In this document: piece by piece, positions 20,314 to 23,451 of the stretch
How positions within the stretch are numbered: the stretch's first letter is position 1
Layout of the letters: the number at the start of each line of letters is the position of its first letter
NCBI GenBank assembly: GCA_016787925.1
Contig: JAEUSK010000134.1
Coordinates: 1-33,286, forward strand
Direction: 5' to 3'
Origin: a bacterium
GTDB taxonomy: Bacteria; CLD3; SB21
Length of the DNA: 33,286 nt
The notes under the pieces: generated by a model
The model's input: only the letters and a program-made list of their open reading frames with translations
What the model was told of the DNA's origin: nothing
The model's database searches: none
Translations under genes and position numbers: made by a program

Positions 20314-23300
20314 TTAGAACTCATTGGCCAGTCCAACCAGCCATCGGAAAGCAATCCGGCGGCTTTTGCCGTTTTGTTCAGGCTTATTCACCCACAAGGG
20401 GAAATCGCATTTCAATCTGTAATTACCTATCCAGGCAGGTACGGGTAATGGGTAATAAAATCCCGAACCCGCATCCATCAAAAGAATTTGGCTAAAGTTC
20501 TTCTTCAGTTTTACGTCATCATTCCACAGCAAGCCGAGATCATAAAAAACATACGGTTCAAATTGAGTCAAAAAGAAAATACTCTTTTGTGTTATGAACT
20601 TAAAAGGGTTTCTGTAATGTAAATCCAAGTTGATTACTAAAATTCTTGAACCGGAAAGATTAGAATCTGCATATCCGCTCATGCTGCCGTCGCCATCGTA
20701 ATGGACATGCCGGGAACTGCTACTGCGCCATAGGCCGTCCGGAATGGTTCCGCGTGAACGATAAAATTTGTTGTCAAACATCTGCCGCGGCGATGCGCCG
20801 GCAATATAATAACGATCCTGCACCGGTACATTTCCCGTCGAATAACCTCCAAATACGTATGGAGTGGCCGACACATATTTCTTCACCAAAGTTAGGGGAT
20901 GCTTGTACGCCATATACAATTTGGAGTAATCCCATCCCGAGCCCAATGTGGAAGTTTCGAAGTTAGCTTTCAGTTTTGGCGAATTGTAAAGTTTGGATTG
21001 TGACGTCCAACCAAGAGAAACCACATTCGTCCGTTTCTTGTCCCATAAGATGCCCGGCGGAAGATAACGGCTGTCGAATAAGTAACTGGAACGAAAACCG
21101 ATATAGAAATCATTAACGGGAGGGCGATACAAGGTGGAGTTATATATCCGCTTTGTAATTACAAATCTGTTTTCAGCCCGCCCCTCAAGACGATAACTTC
21201 CCAAGTTCATATACAACTGCCGTCCCCACTTATACAACGGCGTCGAATAATTGAACTCATAATCAACTTTTCGGCTGTCAATTCCGTAATACACGCCGGC
21301 CTTGATCTTATGCTCATCTGTGGCCCATTTACCATTAAACTGATACCCCGTGCGCAAAATGTCCGCAGCATTATACCACAGCGACGGCCGGTGCTCAATG
21401 ACATATGTGTTTAAAGTCGCCGGTCTGCCAACCGGCATTTGAAAATGCCATTCCGTTTTTGGGAGTAAACCTGTCCGGTTATTCATGCGATGAATATCAG
21501 GTAATAATAATGTTGTGTCGATCTCAACGAACTTTACCGCGTCAGGCAATTCCAGGTAGAGTAAATACTCCGACGATACCTTATTCCATACCGGTTTGCG
21601 CTCAAACCCCCTAATGTCAGGATCATCCGGATGAGAGGGAATACGGTAAGTCAAAGACGAATCGTTGACCAATGTCACTGTTACGTCTACAGGCATTTCG
21701 ATTCTGCCGCGCCTGGCCAGTATAATTTCCGCCTCATAAGATTTCTTGTTATCACGCCATCGGCCTCCTGATTTCTTGATGGCATAATCGCACACATCCG
21801 TTGTGTTCAGCCACTCTTCAAATAGCCAATCAAGCTCAGTGCCCGTTTCCATTTCAAAATAGCGCATCATATCTTCGGTGTATAAATGGTGCAGATGCCA
21901 TTCGGCAAAAAATTTTCTCATCAATTCATCCAACCGCTCTCTTCCAAAATAATATTCCAGCACAAACATGAATATTTCACCTTTGTAGTAAACTGAATAC
22001 AGGTGTGAACGGTCGCTTTGAAAAAAATCTGCGTGTTGAAGTACTTTTTCTTCATAGCCTTGTTTGATCCACATATCCAGGCCGGTATACGTTGCAATAC
22101 GAGCGTCTTCCTTGGGAAACCACATTTGTTTGAATCGTGAATCGTAATCAATATTAGCGTACCTGCCAAACAGATGCTCCATAAGGCGCGTAGTATAATA
22201 CGAAGTTACGCCCTCATCGAGCCATCCTTCCAGCGTTTCATTATTTGCCATCATACCGTAGAACCAATTATGAACCATCTCATGCGCCGTAACGCTGGCC
22301 AGCGATTTCTTATCGCGATCGCCGGTAATAAACACAATATTCGGATATTCCATCCCCCCGTCACCAGCCTGCGCGATCGTAAAATCCGTGTATGGATATT
22401 TGCCGACATGATCATTCATATAAGTGAGAATTTGAGAAGTCCACGTTTTCATTTCTATCCATTTTTCTGCGACGTCAGGCTGGTACAGCAAATGAATACG
22501 CACACCCTCGTGCTCAACACTCTCATATATATAATCTGGATCAGCGCACCACGCAAAATCATGCACATTTTCTGCATGATACAACCATGTCCTGCGCTTG
22601 GTTTCAATTTGCTTTTCTTTCATAAGAACGTCAAACTCGGCGAGTAATGAATCCAATTCCATATTAACTGACGGACCGGATTCTGCAGATGTATCCTTCG
22701 AAATAAGCAGCCGATCTAGGCCGGTTGTTCCGCCGCTGCGCTTCATCATCTCATGTATATCAGCTGCGTTGCGAAGCGAGCCGCTTGCGCCAACTATATA
22801 TTCTTCCGGAAGGGTGATGCTCACATCAAATGTCGCAAACTCACCATAGAATTCACGTCCGAGATAATAGTTTGTGTGCCAGCCCTTTCGATCATATACA
22901 CATACTTTGGGATACCACTGGGCCATGGAAAACTCAATCCCCTCCCTGTTCCGCCATCCCATTCTGCGAAGCAGGAACGGGATCTTCAACTCAAAATCAA
23001 GATAAAAGGTTTGCGCCGTTCCCGGTAATATCGGTTTTTCAAGAATAATTTTTATGATGGTATCATCAATACTAAAATCCAGAAAACCGTAATCCTCGTC
23101 GCGAATGTCACGCACTTTGTTAAAACCAAGATACCTCTCATTCAGATACGAGATAATACTGCCGCCTTCAAATTGGTTACGTTCAATTTGATAACTTTCC
23201 ATAAAACTGTTTTTTTTGAATGCATTTGCATACACATTCAGATACAGCACTTTCAGCGTGTCGGGCGAATTATTGGTATAAACTATGCTTTGTTTCCCGT

Positions 23301-23451
23301 AAACGGTGCGCTTTTTGACATCGAGTTCCGCGTCGATTGAATAATGAATTTTCTGCTGCCATGATGGTCTGTACATTTGGGAAATCAGAAAAGCCGGAGT
23401 GACCAATACAGATATCAATGCTACGGCCACTAATAACAGGAGCTGCCGCAC
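20314..23451 (-). CDS. M1-family metallopeptidase fused to a C-terminal outer-membrane-barrel-like domain
   Basis: About 1045 residues. A signal or anchor helix (1-26) is followed by an M1 aminopeptidase-like module to about 560. This has the substrate motif GGMEYPN (365-371), zinc site H390-E-M-V-H394 and the third ligand Glu413 at the canonical 18-residue interval. From about 665 to the end the sequence changes to alternating aromatic/polar strands (YKWGRQLYMNLGSYRLEG, RILVINLDLHYRNPF, YRLKCDFPLWV) and finishes in LVGLANEF with a terminal Phe. This resembles the surface-antigen/Omp85 barrel, so the peptidase may be held at the outer membrane. An in-frame GTG at 23499 lies upstream of the terminator at 23455-23485, so I prefer GTG 23451. 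That leaves no room for a classic leader. Confidence 0.85.
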   Translation of the reverse strand: MRQLLLLVAVALISVLVTPAFLISQMYRPSWQQKIHYSIDAELDVKKRTVYGKQSIVYTNNSPDTLKVLYLNVYANAFKKNSFMESYQIERNQFEGGSIISYLNERYLGFNKVRDIRDEDYGFLDFSIDDTIIKIILEKPILPGTAQTFYLDFELKIPFLLRRMGWRNREGIEFSMAQWYPKVCVYDRKGWHTNYYLGREFYGEFATFDVSITLPEEYIVGASGSLRNAADIHEMMKRSGGTTGLDRLLISKDTSAESGPSVNMELDSLLAEFDVLMKEKQIETKRRTWLYHAENVHDFAWCADPDYIYESVEHEGVRIHLLYQPDVAEKWIEMKTWTSQILTYMNDHVGKYPYTDFTIAQAGDGGMEYPNIVFITGDRDKKSLASVTAHEMVHNWFYGMMANNETLEGWLDEGVTSYYTTRLMEHLFGRYANIDYDSRFKQMWFPKEDARIATYTGLDMWIKQGYEEKVLQHADFFQSDRSHLYSVYYKGEIFMFVLEYYFGRERLDELMRKFFAEWHLHHLYTEDMMRYFEMETGTELDWLFEEWLNTTDVCDYAIKKSGGRWRDNKKSYEAEIILARRGRIEMPVDVTVTLVNDSSLTYRIPSHPDDPDIRGFERKPVWNKVSSEYLLYLELPDAVKFVEIDTTLLLPDIHRMNNRTGLLPKTEWHFQMPVGRPATLNTYVIEHRPSLWYNAADILRTGYQFNGKWATDEHKIKAGVYYGIDSRKVDYEFNYSTPLYKWGRQLYMNLGSYRLEGRAENRFVITKRIYNSTLYRPPVNDFYIGFRSSYLFDSRYLPPGILWDKKRTNVVSLGWTSQSKLYNSPKLKANFETSTLGSGWDYSKLYMAYKHPLTLVKKYVSATPYVFGGYSTGNVPVQDRYYIAGASPRQMFDNKFYRSRGTIPDGLWRSSSSRHVHYDGDGSMSGYADSNLSGSRILVINLDLHYRNPFKFITQKSIFFLTQFEPYVFYDLGLLWNDDVKLKKNFSQILLMDAGSGFYYPLPVPAWIGNYRLKCDFPLWVNKPEQNGKSRRIAFRWLVGLANEF

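Follow-up and report, generated by a model that had tools for sequence, protein, structure and literature searches.

A predicted M1 metallopeptidase joined to an Omp85-type outer-membrane barrel in a single bacterial protein

The window, the whole stretch of 33,286 nucleotides of DNA analysed here, carries on its minus strand an intact single ORF (window:20314-23451(-)) that starts with GTG at 23451, stops at 20314 and encodes 1045 aa, with the coordinates and frame given in a preliminary description of this DNA. The start codon in the window and in two same-genus relatives is GTG, GTG and TTG, respectively, and internal stop codons were found in none of the same-family relatives. A predicted signal peptide (VRQLLLLVAVALISVLVTPAFLISQ) could be read from the sequence at the N-terminus, and homologues of the protein likewise begin with a hydrophobic leader. 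A hairpin with a T run (window:23451-23483(-)), which resembles a terminator of the STAS gene, abuts the GTG or TTG start in the three genomes. The features of the gene, all on the minus strand, are as follows.

23377..23451 (-): predicted signal peptide, residues 1-25, with the GTG start; read from sequence
21478..23376 (-): M1 metallopeptidase region, residues 26-658; Pfam PF01433, PDB matches, and barrel-less relatives that align over exactly 26-658
22342..22359 (-): GGMEYP, residues 365-370, equivalent of the exopeptidase motif GxMEN; G366 and E368 kept in 21/21 fused homologues
22270..22284 (-): HEMVH zinc motif, residues 390-394; H390, E391 and H394 kept in 21/21 fused homologues
22213..22215 (-): Glu413, third zinc ligand; kept in 21/21 fused homologues
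21988..21990 (-): Tyr488, predicted catalytic tyrosine; kept in 21/21 fused homologues
20317..21477 (-): predicted Omp85-type outer-membrane barrel, residues 659-1045, with terminal Phe; hhalign against BamA, PF01103 in the homologue L013, PDB BamA matches, alternation
20671..20694 (-): GDGSMSGY, residues 920-927, corresponding in degenerate form to GG..[VL]RG[FY], the Omp85 loop-6 motif; aligned position in homologues

The protein matches the Pfam Peptidase_M1 profile (PF01433) with an E value of 1.4e-14 and 54.7 bits, against a cut-off of 27.7, and its M1 region comprises, in order, an N-terminal beta domain, the catalytic domain and a C-terminal beta-rich domain. The zinc peptidase core is intact, as had been noted from the sequence: H390-E391-M-V-H394 is followed after 18 residues by E413, giving the HExxH-18-E zinc site of family M1, with E391 as the general base and Y488 as the predicted catalytic tyrosine. 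At the GxMEN position the protein reads GGMEYP, in which the amine-binding Glu is present and the Asn is replaced by Tyr, a variant shared by nearly all barrel-less relatives. Since the zinc ligands, the general base, the Tyr and the GxMEN Glu are all present and are kept in every one of the fused homologues, the enzyme looks active, and zinc-aminopeptidase activity is predicted from these residues. The best PDB relatives of this part are the cold-active aminopeptidase 3cia (E 1.3e-14) and leukotriene A4 hydrolase (LTA4H), which resemble it in the M1 catalytic domain and motifs; the match is restricted to the catalytic part, and both differ from the window protein in lacking a barrel and in the GGMEYP form of the GxMEN motif.

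The end of the enzyme is marked by barrel-less M1 relatives of ~620 aa (L018, L096, L098 and L017), which stop 5-6 residues beyond the position of residue 658. Barrel-less M1 metallopeptidases of this kind (e.g. L018, L096 and L098) are alike to the window protein from end to end of the M1 region, including the GMEYP variant, but have no barrel. Because these relatives end where they do, a complete enzyme appears to precede the barrel, with a short linker and no room for a POTRA domain. In line with this boundary, only ~25-30 residues separate the end of the M1 region from the first predicted strand of the tail, and no profile match to a POTRA domain before the barrel was detected in the window protein at E values up to 5-10.

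The last 380 residues had been described as rich in alternating aromatic strands and ending in a terminal Phe; alternation and terminal Phe both bore up in the 387-residue tail. Sided hydrophobic alternation in the tail scored 0.644, compared with 0.439 +/- 0.038 for shuffled sequences (0/500 shuffles reached the tail value); the same measure gave 0.629 for BamA and 0.575 for TonB-receptor barrels, and the M1 part showed none (p 0.23). By a crude measure, 16-19 alternation peaks can be counted. The protein ends in Phe, and so do many homologues. The M1-barrel proteins of two other genomes, G081 and G222 (L046:6997-10029 and L089:1351-4476), end in Phe-Gln, not Phe, and a loop-6 RGY motif could not be recognised in them.

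Given that alternation by itself is no proof of a barrel, we tested profile homology. A profile of the tail aligned by hhalign with a profile of 30 BamA barrels from the same genome set over 324 columns with 99.4% probability, and with 98.8% and 96.7% when a larger alignment or the window's own family alone was used, respectively. Controls with TonB-receptor barrels (0.2-1.1%), shuffled columns (0.1-0.3%) and reversed profiles (0.1%) were clean. The tail HMM also picks up BamA proteins directly (best E 1.2e-8), a PDB search with the tail family profile returned no chains other than BamA at E < 0.001, and the homologue L013, which is full-length and 29% identical end to end, reaches 34 bits with PF01103, exceeding the Omp85 cut-off of 24. 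The earlier likeness to Omp85 barrels is thus strengthened from resemblance to homology. A chance barrel-like composition is ruled out by the shuffle and reversal controls together with the alternation test, and a TonB-receptor-type barrel by hhalign probabilities of at most 1.1%. Membership of the Omp85 superfamily, taken as homology of the barrel domain, comes through profiles (hhalign 97-99%, and PF01103 in L013); the window protein alone matched no Omp85 Pfam model, so it is a divergent Omp85-type member. By homology, the tail is predicted to form a closed barrel of ~16 strands. A globular beta-sandwich or ARM-repeat C-terminus was not observed; indirectly, the beta-rich domain of M1 appears to end at ~658, where the barrel-less relatives end. 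Collectively, these data support a protein in which an M1 enzyme, catalytically complete as judged by its residues, is joined to a predicted Omp85-type outer-membrane barrel.

We also examined the loop-6 position, where many distant homologues read GGGxNxRGY/F. The RG[FY] motif is not found in the window protein, which has SGY; its family reads SGY or AGY, meaning that the L6 Arg is lost, while RGY or RGF is kept in 9/21 homologues. The motif is typical of Omp85 proteins but is not the defining feature used by Heinz and Lithgow (PMC4104836).

The preliminary description had proposed a search for the same domain order in related genomes. Full-length homologues share 52-91% identity with the window protein within its genus and family, and 24-36% where they occur in other phyla; in distant homologues, identity is 27-35% in the M1 part and 20-33% in the barrel. 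Two genomes with a fused homologue, G009 and G065, are each the sole genome of their phylum in the compared set. In the phylum of a third, G017, the tail is present in 34/132 genomes, mostly within frames of 900-1116 residues, and 10/10 tail proteins retrieved there carry the M1 domain. Counting these three phyla and the window's own, the M1-barrel order occurs in at least four. A recent gene fusion or an assembly artefact was ruled out, as the architecture recurs across several phyla in genomes that are independent of one another. Mapped onto a tree of the M1 domain, the presence of the barrel takes ~3 changes (2-3 in bootstrap trees), compared with a mean of 15 after shuffling, and the fusion is therefore old. 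This pattern is compatible with a single early joining followed by two losses, with the tree not separating gain from loss. Most genomes searched lack the fused protein, whereas 92/98 contain PF01103 proteins. The gene order STAS, M1-barrel, LysM, PhoH is kept only inside the window's family; neighbours of the M1-barrel genes in other phyla are unrelated, and no conserved neighbour pointing to a substrate or pathway was found.

Two other arrangements were noted in this survey. In G065 the fused gene lies near a barrel-less M1 gene on the same strand (L042:6030-11867(-)), with one gene of 296 aa and no known family between the two. In G062, two proteins of ~1110 residues (L048:6298-9645 and L049:6624-9953) have a multi-span permease-like N-terminus and an M1-like region without HExxH, the zinc site of which seems to have been lost.

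Among known systems, the patatin-like Omp85 proteins PlpD and FplA ("type Vd") share with the window protein an N-terminal hydrolase and a C-terminal Omp85-type barrel in a single chain, but their hydrolase is a patatin lipase rather than M1, and a single POTRA precedes the barrel of PlpD, where the window protein has no room for any. The window protein, with M1 and no POTRA, thus differs from the type Vd domain set (patatin passenger, POTRA, Omp85 barrel) and from the Omp85 proteins that bear at least one POTRA (BamA, TamA, PlpD). The barrels of BamA and TamA are homologous by profile to its tail; in the window protein an M1 peptidase takes the place of their POTRA domains, and its family has lost the L6 Arg. 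Heinz and Lithgow (2014; PMC4104836) defined the Omp85 superfamily by its barrel domain and described ten subfamilies. Some of these lack POTRA and carry a WD40 or a "Metallo" (PF00149) domain, the latter termed a metalloprotease in section 10. In the main text M1 is not mentioned, and the word peptidase is absent except as "metalloprotease" for PF00149 (PMC4104836). As characterised there, the "Metallo" subfamily resembles the window protein in having a metal-dependent enzyme domain and an Omp85 barrel without POTRA, but its enzyme domain is PF00149, whereas that of the window protein is M1 (PF01433). PF00149 is the calcineurin-like metallophosphoesterase family, and that subfamily is therefore probably not proteolytic. 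We found no description of the M1 and Omp85 architecture in the literature searched, the coverage of which was incomplete, and an M1-bearing, POTRA-less Omp85-type protein is apparently an undescribed combination. The earlier remark that an outer-membrane barrel would be unusual for an M1 enzyme was supported.

We consider it probable that the window protein is a periplasm-facing, outer-membrane-anchored M1 metalloaminopeptidase. The protein would be exported by Sec, and in the outer membrane its tail would be folded by the BAM complex as an Omp85-type barrel, for which homology suggests ~16 strands. The M1 domain, adjoining strand 1 where BamA has its POTRA domains, would face the periplasm and trim periplasmic peptides; peptides produced at the outer membrane or entering across it are a natural guess for the substrate. 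The intact M1 site, the Omp85 homology of the tail, the absence of POTRA and the age and spread of the fusion were computed here; the placement of the M1 domain would follow by analogy, because Omp85 N-termini lead into the periplasm and the enzyme domain of PlpD stays there. Characterised Omp85 proteins have their pre-barrel portion in the periplasm. The PlpD enzyme domain, once thought to be secreted, was placed in the periplasm by protease and cross-linking tests in 2024, and the authors argue against translocation of a folded 31-kDa domain (PMC11116518). Their arguments apply more strongly to the M1 domain, since it is about twice that size.

These points bear directly on whether the barrel, or the BAM complex assembling it, instead passes M1 to the cell surface in the manner of type Vd self-display. 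The enzyme-first, Omp85-type-barrel-last order is the one once proposed for PlpD secretion, and the loop-6 RGY or RGF is kept in some homologues (9/21), but the M1 domain, ~2x the PlpD patatin domain, would probably be folded before translocation, no POTRA is present, and the window's family has lost the L6 Arg; we regard self-display as quite unlikely. Accordingly, the suggestion in the preliminary description of a surface or self-translocating aminopeptidase was not borne out, given the periplasmic N-termini of Omp85 proteins, the periplasmic PlpD enzyme (PMC11116518) and the lost L6 Arg, and the M1 domain, folded and ~70 kDa in size, is ill suited to crossing the barrel. Alternatively, the barrel could be a pore that admits or releases peptides, with M1 cutting them at its mouth as a fused importer and processor. 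The conservation of M1 and barrel together across phyla speaks for such a pore, but we judge it unlikely. In known Omp85 barrels L6 forms a plug, and they do not serve as general porins.

Two further explanations concern what the barrel does and whether it is one. As the barrel shares ancestry with Omp85/BamA barrels, and as protein assembly or translocation is the role of every Omp85 protein studied before PlpD (PMC11116518), the protein might act on outer-membrane protein clients like BamA or TamA, with the peptidase checking or trimming them. Such a role is improbable: there is no POTRA domain, the L6 Arg is absent in the window's family, and the fused protein is missing from most genomes searched, compared with PF01103 proteins in 92/98. 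That the tail is some other beta-rich, non-membrane domain mimicking barrel alternation is highly improbable. AlphaFold, run from three sequences only, returned low-confidence models (pLDDT 28.4 for the full length and 24.8 for the tail), and the tail of the window protein alone has no Pfam match, but the homology to BamA barrels is specific, with clean controls, and a full-length homologue exceeds the PF01103 cut-off. A broader proposal, an undescribed Omp85 subfamily in which M1 replaces POTRA and enzyme and barrel form a peptide-handling device (a pore or gated anchor), or deliver the enzyme to the surface themselves, is a tentative possibility that we do not favour.

If the periplasm-facing anchored enzyme is correct, its implications reach beyond this family. 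Omp85 barrels were long taken to serve purely in protein assembly or translocation, and PlpD showed the scaffold reused for an enzyme (PMC11116518); a cross-phylum M1 version would be another enzyme type on that scaffold, by length and domain boundary without any POTRA. It makes testable whether the Omp85 barrel is an anchor holding hydrolases under the outer membrane or acts on their substrates. Automatic annotation would be corrected as well, where a plain M1 metallopeptidase label misses the predicted outer-membrane location.

Elsewhere in the window, a MetH-like protein (window:9790-11679(+)) has homocysteine and pterin domains only; a B12-binding or reactivation domain was not found in it by Pfam, and the B12 part is therefore encoded elsewhere or missing. 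A second predicted aminopeptidase, with M61 and PDZ domains (window:27040-28812(+)), lies a few genes away from the M1-barrel gene, and its position is kept within the family.
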